From Paratrimastix pyriformis (Eukaryota > Preaxostyla > Paratrimastigidae), in NCBI GenBank assembly GCA_027972325.1, contig JAPMOS010000007.1, positions 496,501-560,500 of the forward strand: a stretch of DNA of 64,000 bases, written 5' to 3'. Position numbers and translations under genes: made by a program. Below are positions 53,370 through 64,000 of the stretch, in pieces. The notes under the pieces are model-generated. The model saw nothing but the letters and a program-made list of their open reading frames with translations. It ran no database searches and was not told where the DNA came from. The first letter of the stretch is position 1. The number at the start of each line of letters is the position of its first letter.

Positions 53370-53518
53370 CAAAATGACTGTCCTGTTCCGATCGAAGCTG
53401 GGGAGGGCGGCGGTATGTGCCGCAACGGTTGCAGGACGGGGCCTATAAAGCCGTGACTCAGTAGGCTAAGTTTGCAACCGTTTCTCGATCTCCCTTGCTC
53501 GTGGGGGCGGGCATTCAA
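53370..53518. promoter_or_regulatory. Divergent promoter with Myb sites and TATA box
   Basis: 149 bp separate the Myb-gene ATG (53369, minus) and the EF-hand ATG (53519, plus). It contains gcaacggttgc (53422-53432, with CAACGG at 53423-53428) and gcaaccgttt (53474-53483), an inverted pair sharing AACGGTTGC. TATAAA lies between them at 53444-53449. CAACGG fits the YAACKG Myb consensus and the AACGG core of cell-cycle MSA elements. Feedback control of the Myb gene and co-control of the EF-hand gene are inference. Confidence 0.55.
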
Positions 53519-54803
53519 ATGGATTCTCTATCTGATGCCCAGGTATCTGATTTTGTGGATGTTTTTAATTTCTTGGACCGAAAGAAACACGGATCTATTG
53601 AAATTGATGACCTCCGGGAAGCCTGCGAAAATTTTCGGATTTCTGTTTCGCAAGAGCAACTCCGGAACACCATTGCTGATCTGGATGCCGATTGCAAAGG
53701 AGCGGTTTCTTTCCCGGCTTTCATTCTTATGATGGCCACGCGCCTTCAGGTCCCCTTCCCTCCTCTCCGGTGCCCTCCACCACCTTGCCGCCGTGGTAGC
53801 GAACAACTGTGCCAGAAATGGTTCAAGACGCATTTATCGTCCTAGACCACGCAAACCTGGGTTATTTCACCTTGGAAGAATTGAGACTGGTCTTCCGTCC
53901 CCCTGCGTGCCGGCGCACTTGGCTTATAATCATTAGCTTCTGATGGAAGTTGGCTACACAGTGACCAAGGGTGAGATTGCGGCCTTTGTGGATGCTGCTT
54001 GCCCCGGCCACGACGGTCGGATTACCGCCGAGGTCCGACCCCTCCCCACTCTCATTGTGCTGACCCCGACCCCCGGGTTTTCGACTTAGCGTCTTCAAGA
54101 GCTGGCGCGGCACAGCGGCATACAGATGGCCTCGTCGCCGCCTTCGTTTGATGGCATCGTCTCCCAACTGATGCGCCGCCAGCAAGAGCTGATCTCCGAG
54201 GCCGACCACCGCGCCGTCGCCGAGGGTGCCGTCGCCGGAGGGAATGCAGGCGCATCCACCGGGAATCGCAGTGTTGATGTTGCCGCCCGACGCCGCTGGA
54301 ATCATCTGGCCCACATCACCGGGGTGCATCTGCCAGCACAGAGCGGTGCCCTCCCAACAACGCCGCTCTCCCCGGCTGCGGTCCGGCCGCCTGCCCTGAG
54401 CACCCGAGCTCCGCCGCCCTTGCTTCGGGGTGGGTCGACGGGCACCGATCTGGCTGGCAACAGTGCCCAGCGAGCCACCGCCACGGAGGAGGCGCCTGAC
54501 GCTGCAGCCGTGTTGAGACGCACGCAGCTTCACCACATCCCGCGACCCTCTTCCGGTCGCCCGACCGTTGAGGCGACAATGACACTGGAGATACCTGCCA
54601 GACCCAAGAGAACAGGATACGAGAAGCCCGCCGAAAGGGCCACGCAACCTGTCATCCGACCAAGGACGGCAGCGCCGGCATCATGCAGGACTGGGACAAG
54701 CACGAAAGCCGAACATGCAACAACCACGACTCGGGAGGGACCACCGGGGAAGGGTGTATGGCGATCGGGTACAAGTCACAATGTACATGGCGGGCTCCGA
54801 TAG
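53519..54803 (+). CDS. EF-hand protein (centrin/calmodulin-like) with basic tail
   Basis: Exon 1 (53519-53749) holds two EF-hands, FNFLDRKKHGSIEIDDL and IADLDADCKGAVSFPAFILM; both lack the Glu at loop position 12. Exon 2 (after a gtccccttcc...gtggtag intron) carries FIVLDHANLGYFTLEELRL, a more canonical loop ending EE. Exon 3 (LLMEVGYTVTKGEIAAFVDA) has a fourth loop, ACPGHDGRITAE, again degenerate. Introns gtcttcc...cattag and gtccgac...cttag are consistent. The last exon adds about 230 Ala/Thr/Arg-rich residues to the stop at 54803. Most loops look poor for calcium, so a structural role like centrin or myosin light chain is possible. Confidence 0.8.
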
Positions 54804-54884: not shown

Positions 54885-57499
54885 ATGAACCCAAGCGAAG
54901 ACGTCTTCAGCCTGATTCCCGATGAAATCCTGTCTCTTATCTTCAGCAATCTCCCTCGTTCCGTTCATTCAGTTGTAAAGTCCGTGGTCCACTGTCTCTC
55001 ACTCGCCCCGACATTCGCACCTTAGAAAAGTGTCCCGACGTTTCCTGATTGTTGCTCTGCAGACGAAGCCAAAGGGATCCCATATTAATATCGCCTTTTT
55101 GGGACATGTTGACTGCGGCAAAGTCTGTTTTTTTCGTTGGAGCAATGCACATCCCATATCGTTGTCCGCTTGTTTCAGTCGACCATCGTCGGGCACCTTC
55201 TCACGAACTTGGGAGTGGTTGAGCCTGCTACTCTCGAGGAATACGCTCGTGGCGCCCGGGATATGGGCAAGGAGAGCTTCAAGTATGCCTGGGCGACTGA
55301 CCGCCTCACCCCGGAGCGCGAGCGGGGACTGACCATCCAGGGGGCTGCTACCCGGCGCTTCGAACTGGCCGAGGGGTTCGTCTGCAACCTGATCGACCTT
55401 CCGGGGCATCGCGATTTCACGAAGAACGCGCTCCGCCTCCTGTCGCTGGTCTGTGGCCTGGCCCGTCGACTCGACCCCGTCCCAACTGTCCGCAGGCCGA
55501 CGTGCATGTGCTGGTGGCGGCTGCCCCGATGGGCGAGTTCGAGGCCTCCGTCTCGGCGGGCGGGGCCATCCCCGTGCACACGCTGCTCTCGTACGCCACC
55601 AACATCCACCACCAGATGGCCACCCGCCGGGGCAGGTCTGTCCGACCCCCGGGGGGGTAATGATCCCCCGCCGACAGCACCGTCCCAACCTCCCCCACCT
55701 CGCTAGGCCTCCGCCCCTTGTGGTTGCCGTGAACAAGATGGACGACCGGTCCGTGGTCAACTCCCAGGCCCGCTTCCTCGAAATCCAGGAGGTCCGCCCC
55801 CGCGTCCCTTTCCTCCCGTCCGTCCGCCCCCCCCCCCTCCCCCCCCCGCCTCCGCTTCATTCGCATGTGGCTGCCCACCCTCTGCTCCGGTCCTGTTAGG
55901 AACTGGGCAAGGTGCTGGGACGGCTGCACCCGGCCAACCCGCTGAGCTCCGGGCCGCTGGACGAGCGCTGCATCCCGATGGTGCCCATCTCGGGCTGGCT
56001 GGGCGAGAACCTCACCGCCGTCCACCACCTGTGCCCCTGGTCGCCCCGCCCGCCCCGCCCCGTCCGATCCCGGCGCCGTCATTCGGCGCGATCACGGCCA
56101 CCCCCCCGACCGACCAGCTGGGCTGACTTTCGATGTCCTCGCCTCCCCCCTCGCCTCGCCTCGCCTCGCCTCGCCTCGCCTCGCTTCGCCTCGCCTCGCC
56201 TCGCTTCGCCTCGCCTCGCCTCGCTTCGCCTCGCTTCGCCTCGCTTCGCCTCGCCTCGCCTCGCCTCGCCTCGCCTCGCCTCGCCTCGCCTCGCCTCGCC
56301 TCGTCCGCCCCGCCCTGTCTCATCGTCATCACCACTCCCCCCCGACCGGCCGCTGGGCTGTATTGCCGTCGTCCATGCCTGCCCTGGCCTCGCCCGCCCC
56401 GCCCGCCTCGCCTCGCCCCGCCTCGCCCCGCCTCGCCTCGCCCCGCCTCGCCCTGCCGTGTCTGTGCAGGTACGAGGGCCCGTCGCTTGTGGATGCGATG
56501 CTCTCCCGGGCGGCCATGGTGGAGGCCAACCAGCCCGGGCCGCTGCTCCGGGCCCGCATGCTGCAGGCCACCGAGGCCCCCATGATGGACCAGCTCCGCT
56601 TCCAGGTGCTCGTCCGTCATCACCCCGGCACCCCCCCCCCCCCCCCGCCCCCTGCCGCCACTCCTCCACGCCACGCCCCCACCCACGGCCCGCCCTCGCC
56701 CAGGGCCACGTCAGTCCGCTGTTTCGCATGGGGGGCCCACATCCCACCCGCCGCCCGTCGCGACACCCCAGCTCCTCAACCAACATCCCACGTGTCCATC
56801 CCATCCCATCCCATCCCATCCCATCCCATCCCATCCCATCCACGTCCGTGTTCAGGTTAGGGCACCACCGGCCGGGCGCCGGTCATCCTGGGGCCGTCCG
56901 TTCGGGCGAACTCCACGTCGGACAGCGGATCCGCTTCGCCGGGTCTGCATTTCCCAAAAAAAAAAAACAAAACAAAAAAATACTACATTCATCCTCCCAT
57001 TCTGAGTGTGTTCATGAGGTCCCACCCGTGTCAAAAGCAAAACAGCAAACCGCCCAACCCCCGTGGTGGGATTCGGCGTTGGTGAGTGTGGGCCGTGCGC
57101 CTCGTCCCCCGTCTCGTCCTTCCCCCTCCACCACCTGACCACCTGACCACTCCACCCACACCCTCACCCCCACCCCACCCTCACCCCCACCCCACCCCCA
57201 CCACTCCACACACCCACGCCGCCCCTCCCACGCACCTCGGCCAGGCTCCGGGCCCCGTCTTCGATGCGCCAGCGGCCCTTCGAAGCCCATCGGATCTGCC
57301 GCGACACCGTCCTCGAGGCCCTGGCCCTCAACCAGGCGCCCCGGCGGCCGCCCAGGGGGCCCGGGTGCATATGCACGAGCGCAGCGGGCCCGCCAGGAAT
57401 GTCATCGCCCATTACCGCAACTCGGGCACCCTGCGGCAGTGCGTCGAGGTGGTGGGCCGGGTGGCCAGCATCCAGATCGATCGCAAGGTCCCTCCACCG

Positions 57500-57537
<38 letters not shown>

Positions 57538-60189
57538 ACCACCACCACCACCACCACCACCACCACCACCACCACCACCACCACCACCACCACCACCACC
57601 ACCACCACCACCACCACCACCACCACCACCACCACCACCACCACCACCACCACCACCACCACCACCACCACCACCACCACCACACCACCACCACCACCAC
57701 CACCACCACCACCACCACCACCACCACCACCACCACCACCACCACCACCACCACCACCACCATGACACACACCACCACCACCACCACCACCACCATGACA
57801 CACCACCACCACCACCACCACCACCACCACCACCACCACCACCACTCACCACACCACCACCACCACCACCACCCACCACCACCACCACCACCACCACCAC
57901 ACCACCACCACACCACCACCACCACCACACCACCACCACCACCACCACCACCCACCACCACCACCACCACCACCACCACCACCACCACCACCACCACCAC
58001 CACCACCACCACCACCCCACCACCACCACACCACCATGACACACACCACCACCACCACCACCACCACCACCACCACCATGACACACCACCACCACCACCA
58101 CCACCACCACCACCACCACCACCACCACCACCACCACCACCACCACCACCACCACCACCACCACCACCACACCACCACCACCACCACCACCACCACCACC
58201 ACCACCACCACCACCACCACCACCACCCACCACCACCACCACCACCACCACCACCACCACCTCACCACCACCACCACCACCATGACACACACCACCACCA
58301 CCACCACCACCACCATGACACACACCACCACCACCACCACCACCACCACCACCACCACCACCACCACCACCACCACCACCACCACCACCACCACCACCAC
58401 CACCACCACCACCACCACACCACCACCACCACCACCACCACCACCACCACCCACCACCACCACCACCACCACCACCCACCACCACCCACCACCACCACCA
58501 CCACCACCACCACCACCACCACCACCACCACCACCACCACCACCACCACCACCACCACCACCACCCCACCATGACACACACCACCACCACCACACACCAC
58601 CACCACCACCACCACCACCACCACCACCACCACCACCACCACCACCACCACCACCACGACACACACCACCACCACCACCACCACCACCACCACCACCACC
58701 ACCACCACCACCACCACCACCACCACCACCACCACCACCACCACCACCACCACCACCACCACCACCACCACCCACCACCACCACCACCACCACCACCACC
58801 ACCACCACCACCATGACACACACCACCACCACCACCACCACCACCACCAACACACACCACCACCCACCACCACCACCACCACCACCACCACCACCACCAC
58901 CACCACCACCTCACCACCACCACCACCACCACCACCACCACCACCACCACCACCCACCACCACCACCCACCACCACCTCACCACCACCACCACCACCACC
59001 ACCACCACCACCACCACCCCACCACCACCACCACCACCACCACCACCACCACCACCACCACCTCACCACCACCACCACCACCCACCACCACCATGACACA
59101 CACACCACCACCACCACCACCACCACCACCACCACCACCACCACCACCACCACCACCACCACCACCACCACCACCACCACCACCACCACCACCACCACCA
59201 CCACCACCATGACACACACCACCACCACCACCACCACCACCACCACCACCACCATGACACCACACACCACCACCACCACCACCACCACCACCACCACCAC
59301 CCACCACACCACCACCACCACCACCACCACCACCACCACCACCACCACCACCAACACCACCACCACCACCATGACACACACCACCACCATGACACACACC
59401 ACCATCACCACCACCACCACCATCACCACCGCCGCCGCCACCACCACCACCACCACCACCACCACCACCACCACCCCACCACCACCACCACCACCACCCC
59501 ATGACACACACCACCATGACACACACCACCACCATGACACACACCACCACCACCAGCATCCAGATCGATCACAAGGTCCCCCTCCATCACCATCCCCATC
59601 AGCACCACCCAGCATTACCACCGGCGGTAGCATCAGCATCATCAGCATCATCAGCGTCCAGATCGATCACAAGGTCCCCCTCCATCACCACCACCACCAC
59701 TCCATCACCACCACCACCACCACCACCACCACCCACCACCCACCACCCACCACCATCACCATCACCATCACCATCACCACACCCAGCATCACCATCACCA
59801 TCACCACACCCAGCATCACCACCGGCGGCAGCATCAGCATCATCAGCATCACCACCACACCCAGCATCACCACCACACCCAGCATCACCACCGGCATCAG
59901 CGTCGGCGGTCCTCCTCAAGGTCACCACCAGCATCGGGGGGGCACCATCACGATCGACAATGCAGCATCCATCAGGGGCATCAACACCGACGGGGATGAC
60001 CCGGTGCCGTTCATGATATTCCCCTCGCCCGCCCGCCCCCGCCCGCCCCTGTCATCTCCTCCCTGATGGCGGCAGGATGTCCCGGATGCCTACGAGGGGG
60101 AGCTCGCGGGCATCACCCTGGATGACGCCCAGATCCGCTTCGGCGGCTGCCTCAAGGGTCCGCCCCCCCCCCCCCCCCCCCCCCCACTC

Positions 60190-60241
<52 letters not shown>

Positions 60242-62401
60242 TCTACATATATAAATACCGAAAACAGGGACGACTTTTCGGGGAAGGAACTGAGGGTGGC
60301 CTTCCAAAATCTGTAAATCCCAGGGCTCTCCCCCGGCACCGACCCGACCCAAAGGCAGTTGGTATTTTAGTCCTCATGCCGTCGGACTTTGCCAACTTAG
60401 GGGCAACACGCCATTTGCCAGGGAGAGTGCAGCCGTCATCACACCCTATGTTCGGGACCGGCTTACCGCAGCACTGCGGGGACGTCCACAGGCCACAGTG
60501 GTATCCTGGAGAGCGCACCGTGTTGTTGGAGTGGGGTCCGGCCAGCTGTCCGAGCGGCTCGGTCACCGTGGACCAGCACTCGAGAGAACCCGTCGCAAGG
60601 CCGGGATGGTAGGGGCATACATCAGAGGGGATCGCCAACCTTGACCGGGCGGGCCATTGTGCTTCGGGTCTCCAAGCGGGTTCGGGCGGTGGTGGGCTAA
60701 GCTAAGCTTCAAGGGCAGGGGGCCAGAGAGCGCTACCATGTGTCGCACCGATTTCGCACCGATTTCGCAACGATTTCGCAACATTTTCGCAACAGTGTTG
60801 TCCGGACAACGATCGCACCTGAAGGTGGGGCCGGACGCAGCCTGCGCCACAGGCGCATGAGAGCCTACCAGGTCTACTAAGCCTACTGTGTCTTGCGGCA
60901 TTTCGGCTTTTCGGCCCTTCGGCCCCTCCGACCCCATCTTCACAAGTCCCCAGGGGTGGCCCTTATATACCCTACTTGGGAGGCACCCCAAAAAGTATGG
61001 GAGGCACAGGAAAAAATATGGGACCAAAATTAAAGTCCAAAAAATTCAAATGACCGGAGAGGGTCGGCGACCTTACCGTTCGCTGGAGGGACCCATAAAT
61101 CCACCAAACCGTGGTCGTGGTGGCCCCCAGGTCAACCCTTCCCCGGGGGGATAGCCACCAAGGTCGAAAATTTCAAACAGGCTCAGACGGGTCGGGGAAG
61201 GATGGCGCCTCAGCAGTCGTTCGGGCCACCTTGCCCTATCATCGCAGGGCGGTCGCGATCGACTCCAGGGCAACCCTTCCCCGGGGGGATAGCCACCAAG
61301 GTCGAAATTTCAAAGTGGTTGGCAAAGGCCGGCGACCTCACCGTTCGCTGGAGGGACCCATAAATCCAGCGAACCGTGGTCGGTACCGGCCGCCGATCGA
61401 CCCTTCCCCGGGGGGATAGCCACCAAGGTCAAAATTTCAAACAGGTCGGGGAAGCACGGCGACCTCACCGTTCGCTGGAGGGACCCATAAATCCAGCGAA
61501 CCGTGGTCGAGGTTGCCCGCCGATCGACCCTTCCCCGGGGGGATAGCCACCAAGGTCGAAATTTCGGAGTGGTTGGCAAAGGCCGGCGACCTCACCAGTC
61601 GTTCGGACCACCCTGCCATATCCCCGCAGGATGGTCGCGGTCGACTCCAGGTCAACCCTTCCCCGGGGAGATAGCCACCAGATTGAAAGCGTAACGAAGC
61701 GAGCTCGCCTGACTTGTCATCATCATCATCATCATCATCACCGAGTCATCATCATCATCGTCATCATCATCATCATCACCGAGTCATCATCCAATCTTCA
61801 TCATCATCCCCGTCGTAGTCTCGGAGTGGATCCACCGGCCTGCCTTCACCAAGTGGGAGCCGCTCCGCCTGGGCCCCGGCGACTGGCGCGTGCTCTTCCA
61901 CGCGGGGGCCGTGGCGGGCGCCGATCGGGACGCCACCCTGGGGTCGATCATGCCCTCGTCCCGCCCCGGATGGTCGAATACCCCCCCCCCCCCCCGCTGG
62001 TCTCCCCAACCCCTCGACTCCTCTGGCCTCCCTTACCCCCACTGGGTCTCCTCCTTGCCCCCTGCCTCTTACCCTCCTCCTGGTTCGACGCCCCCCCCCC
62101 CCCCCCCCTCTCGATCTCCCAACGGCGCACACGGTCCTGAAGGCGGAAGAGGTCGCCCCGCCCCGCGCCATGTCGCCCCTGTACACCTCCTTCATCGCCG
62201 AGGTCATGCTGAGCCCCGCCGGCAAGGGGTACACGTCCCGTCTGTATCACCCCATCCACCACCACCACCACCACCACCACCACCACTCCATCACCACCCC
62301 AAACCACCTCGTTTCGGGGATCGACTGACGGGACTTTCGTTCATCCCTTTCCGGCGCTCATCATTTTTTGAATTTTTCCGACCGGGGTTTCCGACCGGGG
62401 G

Positions 62402-62466
<65 letters not shown>

Positions 62467-63639
62467 GATGCTGATCAGCCCTGGCCCGGCGCGGCTTCCA
62501 AGTGGGCTTTGAGCCGCTGCTGCACGTGGCCGGGGGCCAGGCCACGGCCCAGGTGCTCGAGCTGATCTGCAAGAAGCCCCGACGGGGCGGGGCGCCCCTG
62601 GTCAGACCCGCCGGGGCCCGGGAGACCCCCCTGCCGCGGGGCTTTGAGAAACAGGCTGCCCAGTGGTACAGCGAGGGTCCGGATGGAGAGGGCTGCTCGG
62701 GGGGGGGGGGAGGGGAGGGAGGGGAGGGGAGGGAGGGGAGGGGGAGGGGAGGGGAGGGGGGAGGGGAGGGGAGGGGAGGGGGGGGAGGGGGGAGGGGGGA
62801 GGGGGAGGGGGGAGGGGGAGGGGGAGGGGAGGGGAGGGGAGGGGAGGGGGAGGGGAGGGGAGGGGTGGGGGGATGAGCGAGTGCGTGAATGGGTGTGTGT
62901 GGTGTCGGACGGACTGCCCCATCCCACCTTCCCCGCGTGGTTGGCCGGAACTCCTGCCGGTGGTGCTGCCGCCGCCGCCGCCGCCGCCGCCCTCTGCTGT
63001 TGTTGTCGTGGTGGCAGCCTTCCTGGACCTGTGCGAGCAGAGCACCCACGAGCGGTACGACATGGCCTAGTGGATCCCCCACCCCGCCGTGGCCGGCATG
63101 GGCGAGCGGGTCGTGGCCCGCTTCCAGCTCAAGTCCGTGCGCCCCCTCCCGCCGCCATCATCCCCCGACCGACCTGACCGTTCGTCATCCGTCCTCCTTC
63201 CCCAGACGGGCCCCTCTTCCTGGATCTGTACCGGCTAGGCACCGCCCGCCAGGCCGAGGGCGAGGGCGAGGCCGCGCCGTGCGGGGTGCGGACACCAACC
63301 AAGACGGCAACCTCGTCCCCTTCGGTCCGTCTCCATCCCTGTTCATCCACCCCCACTCCCCAGTCTTCCATCCCCGTCTCCATCCCCGTCTCCATCCCCG
63401 TCTCCATCCCCGTCTCCATCCCCGTCACCATCCCCGTCTCCATCCCCGTCACCATCCCTCGTCACTATCCCTCTCCGCCTCTATCGGGCGATCGCCGCTC
63501 ACTTTGGTTTTCCTGGTGGTGGGGGATCGGGTCTGGGGGATCGGATTTGGGGGGGGGATGCCCTGCTGCTGCAGGGGTCTTTGTGATGCGGGACGGGCGC
63601 GAGGTGGTGGGCCTGGGCAAGGTGATCGCCTTCGACTAA
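54885..63639 (+). CDS. F-box / EF1A-like GTPase fusion
   Basis: The N-terminus is an F-box: IPDEILSLIFSNLPRSVHSV in exon 1 (54885-54979), joined by a 46-bp intron (gtccgtgg...cttag) to KKVSRRFLIVALQ, the usual F-box end. It runs straight into an eEF1A-type G domain: KGSHINIAFLGHVDCGK|S (G1), AWATDRLTPERERGLTIQ (G2), NLIDLPGHRDF (G3), VAVNKMD (G4) and VPISGWLGENL (G5). Domain 2 includes VFRLGHHRPGAGHPGAVRSG, ELHVGQRIRFAG, ASIQIDRK and DVPDAYEGELAGITLDDAQI. Domain 3 includes YTSFIAEVMLSPAGKGYT, RRGFQVGFEPLLHVAGG and the terminal FVMRDGREVVGLGKVIAFD. Two introns are huge (57488-60075 and 60158-61817). The exon at 57250-57487 needs a frame change, and the domain 2 acceptor near 56850 is unclear. 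The GTPase motifs are complete. A role linking translation and ubiquitin ligases is speculation. Confidence 0.78.
56150..56310. repeat. Intronic (CGCCT)n pentamer array
   Basis: About 30 units of cgcct with interspersed cgctt variants in the GTPase-gene intron after the G5 exon. A shorter related stretch is at 56395-56455, and a (CCCAT)n run at 56798-56840. Confidence 0.85.
57488..59760. repeat. Giant (CCA)n-dominated array inside an intron
   Basis: About 2 kb of almost pure CCA (57510-59480), broken by higher-order inserts of the form accatgacacacacc (about ten, e.g. 57760, 57793, 58035, 58280, 58570, 58811, 59209, 59370, 59501, 59516). It fills most of the 2,588-bp intron between the ASIQIDRK and DVPDAYEG exons of the GTPase gene. 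Two extra copies of the exon-end sequence (catccagatcgatcacaaggtccc) lie at 59554-59580 and 59652-59680. 59580-60000 is a less pure CAC/ATC-rich region. The long His, Thr or Pro frames here are not coding. Confidence 0.9.
60185..60240. repeat. (ATC)n microsatellite, left flank of inserted element
   Basis: About 16 ATC units preceded by poly-C. It resumes as (TCATCA) at 61718-61800, so the element between appears to have landed inside one microsatellite. Confidence 0.85.
60241..61717. mobile_element. 1.48-kb inserted element of unknown class
   Basis: This segment differs from its surroundings: balanced base composition, no simple repeats, and short direct repeats such as accgatttcgca/acgatttcgca (60749-60795). 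TCA/ATC microsatellite flanks it on both sides. The left half holds only short open frames with no motif I recognise. Near 60960 is ccttatataccctac, TATA-like. The right third is a tandem array (61075-61690). It could be a non-autonomous transposon, a displaced intergenic spacer or a satellite island. No terminal inverted repeats or target duplication can be defined, because the target is itself repetitive. Confidence 0.4.
61060..61690. repeat. Five tandem units of 127-138 bp
   Basis: The anchor acccttccccggggggatagccacca occurs at 61136, 61274, 61401, 61528 and 61656 (the last with gggagata). Between anchors, units alternate between two types: gttcgctggagggacccataaatcca and cagtcgttcgg(g/a)ccaccctgcc. 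This gives a higher-order pattern of related subunits. Confidence 0.85.
62402..62466. repeat. (GAT)n microsatellite in GTPase-gene intron
   Basis: About 21 GAT units just before the exon ALARRGFQVGFEPLLHVAGG. Confidence 0.9.
62698..62875. repeat. (GGGGA)n-like purine tract
   Basis: About 175 bases of aggggaggg units on the plus strand: a pure purine tract in the intron after the ICKKPRRGGAPL exon. Such tracts can adopt G-quadruplex or triplex structure. Confidence 0.85.
63375..63465. repeat. 12-bp repeat (atccccgtctcc)
   Basis: Seven to eight copies of ccatccccgtctc/ccatccccgtcac in the last intron of the GTPase gene. Confidence 0.85.
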
Positions 63640-63821: not shown

Positions 63822-64000
63822 TTAGTGGGGGGGCTGCAGGTTGTTCTTCTCGGGCTCGAGGAAGGTGGCGACCATGGCCCGCACCAGGGTGGCCAGCTCC
63901 TCGCGGGGGTTGCCCGGGTAGGGGGCGCACATCTCGCAGTAGAACTTCAACTTGGGCTCGGTGCCGCTGGTGCGCAGGGTGATGGTGGCCCCGTTCTCGA
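63822..64000 (-). CDS. PGM2: Phosphoglucomutase/phosphopentomutase PGM2, 3' end
   Basis: The gene enters from the right edge. The visible C-terminus is ATITLRTSGTEPKLKFYCEM, then CAPYPGNPREELATLVRAMV and FLEPEKNNLQPPH with stop at 63822-63824. RTSGTEPKLKFY is the phosphate-binding loop of domain 4 in alpha-D-phosphohexomutases, and the last residues follow human PGM2 (QPQKYNLQPKAD). It interconverts hexose or pentose 1- and 6(5)-phosphates in the cytosol. It converges on the GTPase gene with 182 bp between stops. Confidence 0.93.
   Translation of the reverse strand, partial: ENGATITLRTSGTEPKLKFYCEMCAPYPGNPREELATLVRAMVATFLEPEKNNLQPPH

Follow-up and report, generated by a model that had tools for sequence, protein, structure and literature searches.

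An F-box joined directly to an eEF1A-like GTPase in a paralogue family of Paratrimastix pyriformis

The specificity of an F-box protein is set by the domain behind its F-box, usually leucine-rich repeats (LRR), WD40 repeats or a similar receptor domain. A gene in a 64,000-nucleotide stretch of DNA from Paratrimastix pyriformis (Preaxostyla; contig JAPMOS010000007.1, positions 496,501 to 560,500; the window, in the following) raises the question of whether a translational GTPase can occupy this position and, if so, what it would do there. An earlier note on this DNA had described a fusion of the two domains. The observation is confirmed: at this locus an F-box runs directly into an eEF1A-like G domain, the Pfam F-box-like match covering residues 9–42 of the product and the GTP_EFTU match starting at residue 50. 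The gene starts with the ATG at 54885, and the spliced product of exons 1 and 2 reads MNPSEDVFSLIPDEILSLIFSNLPRSVHSVVK followed by KVSRRFLIVALQTKPKGSHINIAFLGHVDCGK. A search of the species' own genome (56 Mb) returned six further loci beside the window (C474, C463:623k, C463:598k, C90, C222 and C157), with which the features of the window gene were compared.

54885..54979, + strand: exon 1, with the ATG and the beginning of the F-box (MNPSEDVFSLIPDEILSLIFSNLPRSVHSVV and a split codon); from the sequence, spliced alignment and the Pfam F-box match, with the same exon at all six other loci
54980..55025, + strand: intron 1, 46 bp, phase 2, GTCCGT...TTAG; same codon and phase at all seven loci, lengths 43–54 bp
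55026..55122, + strand: exon 2, which completes the F-box (KVSRRFLIVAL) and continues through a linker and the first strand to the P-loop GHVDCGK; spliced alignment
55179..55448, + strand: exon 3, G2 (ERERGLT) and G3 (DLPGHRDF); spliced alignment, and PF00009 at 45.9 bits from 55179–55445 alone
55496..55635, + strand: exon 4, G domain; spliced alignment
55707..55791, + strand: exon 5, G4 NKMD at 55732–55743; sequence and spliced alignment
55900..56039, + strand: exon 6, G5 SGW at 55990–55998; sequence and spliced alignment
56470..56605, + strand: exon 7, completing the G domain, all 136 bases identical in the paralogue C463:623k; spliced alignment and exon comparison
56861..63639, + strand: domains 2 and 3 (D2/D3), further exons separated by long simple repeats; TAA at 63637–63639

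The 46-bp intron that restores the frame between the two halves of the F-box is thus as previously described. The five G motifs reported as intact are all there (G2 at 55314–55334, DLPGH of G3 at 55395–55409), including the DxPGH of translational GTPases; NKMD and SGW, however, lie beyond the interval 54885–55440 to which the earlier note had confined them, and a second intron, of 56 bp, falls inside G1 (GHVDCGK at 55102–55122, ST at 55179–55184). In the window, the frame of the GTPase has no ATG from the nearest upstream stop (54976) as far as the P-loop, and an ATG start therefore needs an upstream exon. A custom-written spliced aligner, guided by a profile built from three NCBI paralogue models and the window product, returned the same seven exons. 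For the window this is a consistency check: its product had been included in the guide profile, and the aligner scores GTNCGT, GTNTGT and similar donors slightly higher, which partly favours the donor pattern. C474 and C222 have no row in the guide profile, yet the same splicing was obtained. After intron 1 (GTCCGT), the donors are GTCTGT, GTCTGT, GTCTGT, GTCCGC and GTCGCC. As a separate observation, the window gene and the eRF3- and HBS1-like genes of the species mostly have GTCTGT, GTCCGT, GTCCGC or GTCTGC donors, not GTRAGT.

The F-box was recognized from its N-terminal sequence. Against Pfam, the first 56 residues gave F-box-like at E 1.1e-4 and F-box at 20.9 bits (cut-off 20.5), with no family other than F-box at E ≤ 10. 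An F-box family is the top match for six of six family N-termini, in four of them above a cut-off, and a profile of the family matched an alignment built from eight strong P. pyriformis F-boxes with a probability of 97.4 and a score of 52.1; the maximum was 21.2 among 200 column-shuffled versions and 13.5 among six G-domain slices.

The architecture is shared by a family. At all seven loci exon 1 holds the start of the F-box and intron 1 interrupts the same codon, and the order F-box, intron 1, GTPase recurs at each of the six other loci. In C474 intron 1 has 54 bp and no stop, so that F-box and P-loop share one open frame even unspliced. F-box and G domain are unbroken at five of the seven loci (window, C474, C463:623k, C90 and C222); C463:598k has two breaks at the end of the G domain and C157 has nine. 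C157 (C157:445400-450400, annotated as PAPYR_5246) is near-identical to C463:623k, from which it differs mostly by indels: the two main alignments contain 14 substitutions and 59 gaps, 39 of the latter in homopolymers. This locus is probably redundant, a poorly polished duplicate that retains sequencing error, so that six distinct members would be left. The NCBI models join F-box and GTPase in the same manner. One of them, P0003 (C90), places an FkbM methyltransferase domain ahead of the F-box and GTPase; it probably represents two merged genes, although it may be a triple fusion, and the methyltransferase was dropped as a part of the family since it is confined to this model.

In a G-domain tree of 25 rows, in which the row P0008, labelled archaeal, looks like a eukaryotic eEF1A, the six members form one clade with support of 100/100 and a stem of 1.09 changes per column, which fits a single fusion followed by duplication. 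The clade is distinct from the species' own eEF1A, HBS1 and eRF3, and groups with eEF1A, HBS1 and eRF3 on a weakly supported branch (37/76) that does not place it nearer to any one of the three; eEF1A is the closest relative by sequence. No member has the canonical eEF1A layout with the G domain first, the F-box leading in every one, and the standard layout is found in another gene, at C461. The predicted model of the paralogue P0001 shows the fold of a G domain followed by domains 2 and 3, the latter part resembling D2/D3 of eEF1A; Pfam gave no match above cut-off for these domains in P0001–P0003. Identities between the window exons and those of C463:598k and C463:623k range from 66% to 100%, with exon 3 left out and exon 2 compared with one copy only. 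Exon 7 matches that of C463:623k at 100% and exon 4 that of C463:598k at 97.9%, whereas exon 1 is only 68.4% and 66.3% identical to those of C463:623k and C463:598k. Such uneven values make patchy exchange or gene conversion among the three C463 neighbours likely.

The searches made bear out the earlier remark that eEF1A, HBS1 and eRF3 are not known to carry an F-box: in the protein and literature searches no fusion of an F-box with a translational GTPase was met outside P. pyriformis. Searches with the window protein (60 hits) and with the family alignment (54 hits at E ≤ 1e-10) yielded 62 proteins together; they scored 7997 candidates, few of them ordinary eukaryotic eEF1As, and do not imply absence in oxymonads or other relatives. 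In 53 of the 62 the P-loop precedes residue 46, which leaves no room for such an F-box. Four are from P. pyriformis (P0001–P0003 and P0061), two are cut short (P0022 and P0024), and three with longer N-termini (P0026, P0027 and P0047) have no similar motif in the 60 residues ahead of the P-loop. Residues 1–66 alone gave nine candidates in the protein collection and two hits, both from P. pyriformis; the reach of this search is short, as the true member P0003 was missed. The precomputed Pfam column lists an F-box for none of the 62 and is no test, since the members P0001–P0003 are blank as well. Among the titles and beginnings of abstracts listed, from a coverage that mostly excludes subscription journals, none described a fusion of an F-box with eEF1A, HBS1 or eRF3.

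We consider it probable that a single event put an F-box in front of a duplicated GTPase of the eEF1A/HBS1/eRF3 type and that the fusion then multiplied, its F-box docking Skp1 in an SCF (Skp1–cullin–F-box) ubiquitin ligase and its GTPase body binding the substrate. The state of the window copy, the weakness of several F-box results and the altered motifs of one member weigh against this reading. As assembled, D2/D3 of the window carries an in-frame TAG at 63068–63070, and its frame is broken near 56893, 57350 and 63284; two extra breaks flagged by the aligner (61965 and 63207) may be exon-edge artefacts. F-box and G domain stay open, and a full-length product of this copy may be doubtful. The alternative that this copy is a pseudogene in decay and that the paralogues alone matter has, in our view, somewhat less than an even chance. 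Besides the stop and the frame breaks, this alternative can point to a (CCA)n array of 2.4 kb that separates D2 exons (57494–59892) and to the protein searches, where no hit within the permitted length range was a model close to this locus. It has to contend with exons 1–7, which are open and have plausible splice sites, and with the nature of the assembly, which is based on Nanopore and PacBio reads and was later polished (PMC10703272). One-base gaps, so frequent between C157 and C463:623k, are demonstrable noise of this assembly, which accounts less easily for the in-frame stop; because of such noise the frame breaks were dropped as proof of pseudogenization. The same question touches the paralogues. 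C222 reads to its end unbroken under the two best-scoring of three guides, and an intact family member therefore exists. C463:623k and C90 are free of breaks over their full length only with their own NCBI models as guides, the window as guide giving one and two breaks; with the window as guide, C474 has two and C463:598k three. The paralogue family, the downstream domains 2 and 3 and the interrupted D2/D3 half of the window copy all go beyond the earlier note.

It is unlikely, in our judgement, that the N-terminal helices descend from an F-box without binding Skp1 and serve instead as a structural cap or a non-SCF docking site on a diverged translational GTPase, a role comparable to that of the N-terminal extensions of HBS1, eRF3 and Ski7. 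Some of the sequence evidence does lean this way. The Pfam matches stop at profile position 31–35 of 43 or 47, and longer proteins score weakly: the 321-residue window product reaches 18.1 and 17.2 bits, under the curated cut-offs of 24.3 and 20.5, P0002 and P0003 are also under the Pfam cut-off, and full-length P0001 gives no F-box at E ≤ 1. By profile the F-box sequence motif is nevertheless present, though whole-protein scores are low. The residues common to the six N-termini (F8, P12 D13 E14, I19, R25, K32 K33, S35, R37 F38 L39 and others) divide between the two readings, the invariant Lys-Lys in helix 2 suiting a cap, whereas the invariance of F8, P12 D13 E14, I19, K33, S35, R37 F38 L39 in all six members argues against it. 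The ratio of nonsynonymous to synonymous rates (dN/dS) of the F-box codons is 0.055–0.175 in four of 15 pairs, each time under that of the G domain; this comparison is weak, because exon exchange among the C463 copies distorts the G-domain value, and dS of the F-box is saturated in the other 11 pairs.

The fold prediction that the earlier note had called for, made on two paralogues instead of the window copy and without Skp1, did not refute the F-box reading; AlphaFold places three helices in the right position ahead of the first G-domain strand (13–22, 25–34 and 36–45 in P0001; 274–282, 286–295 and 297–306 in P0003), with low block means of the predicted local distance difference test (pLDDT), about 45–69 over the F-box. 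A PDB search with the family F-box profile gave 12 matches at E ≤ 10, none of them significant; Skp2 appeared at E 1.1 alongside unrelated chains scoring the same or better, including RBBP6 and eIF2B, and is not used as support. With the F-box and the start of the G domain as query, the best 60 of 131 matches are GTPases, and the structure comparisons include no F-box structure among the 50 matches listed. In VIA-align at least one fifth of the rows cover residues 46–773 only, so that its result speaks neither for nor against an F-box fold. As to the G domain, C474 deviates at G1 (GGTDAGKS) and G4 (TKMD replacing NKMD), and GTP binding may perhaps not be general across the family.

That a separate F-box gene merely adjoins an EF1A-like gene, with the intron only seeming to connect them, is very improbable: at least 107 F-box matches in the genome make chance neighbours possible and the GTPase frame of C463:623k and C90 has one ATG within intron 1, but order, spacing (43–54 bp) and phase are alike at seven of seven loci, the C474 frame is open unspliced, the window GTPase frame has no ATG and the NCBI models agree on the join. 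C222 has a Met right before its P-loop, and a start downstream of the F-box exon may be possible at C463:623k, C90 and C222.

The fused adaptor that we favour could act as follows. The genome holds Skp1-domain and cullin matches in addition to its F-box matches, which makes an SCF role plausible. The N-terminal F-box would recruit Skp1 of the ligase, and the GTPase would sit near Skp1, because the last F-box helix ends a few residues ahead of the first G-domain strand. The three-domain body would serve as the substrate receptor, its rearrangement between GTP and GDP states could switch what is presented for ubiquitylation, and the substrates might be proteins that interact with eEF1A or with the ribosome. 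The earlier note's suggestion that the window protein may be an active GTPase recruited to an SCF ligase is still an unproven proposal. More tentatively still, the family could represent a novel kind of ubiquitin-ligase receptor that expanded in one Preaxostyla flagellate: an SCF adaptor gated by GTP, in which a decoding GTPase has been repurposed as the substrate module and the GTP cycle licenses ubiquitylation, perhaps on partners of eEF1A or at the ribosome.

The family resembles eEF1A, HBS1 and eRF3 in its G motifs and in the three-domain fold of a paralogue's predicted model, and differs from them in the N-terminal F-box, the diverged D2/D3 and its own clade. With SCF F-box proteins it shares an N-terminal F-box and a C-terminal candidate receptor domain; in contrast, this domain is a translational GTPase, and the F-box match is short, with the G domain following directly behind. 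If the proposal is true, a translational GTPase retained behind the F-box of six diverged members would tie ubiquitylation to a GTP switch and perhaps to translation as well, which is testable with small proteins. The family is easily overlooked, as three of the four gene models found carry the name elongation factor 1-alpha and the F-box falls under automatic cut-offs. Adaptor–GTPase fusions are a known kind: lineage-specific fusions of F-box and BTB domains with ARF-family GTPases are recorded (PMC8358228), likewise combining a GTPase with a ubiquitin-ligase adaptor domain, though the GTPases there are of the ARF family and not the three-domain translational type of P. pyriformis.

Most introns among the first seven exons are short, in contrast to the repeat-bearing ones, such as that with a CCTCG array at 56137–56452. 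A 127-bp tandem repeat of 2.6 copies (61273–61596) lies in the region between D2/D3 exons. Just 5′ of the gene an EF-hand pair is encoded on the + strand (53465–53845), and the C-terminal end of a phosphoglucomutase/phosphomannomutase occupies about 63826–64000 on the − strand.
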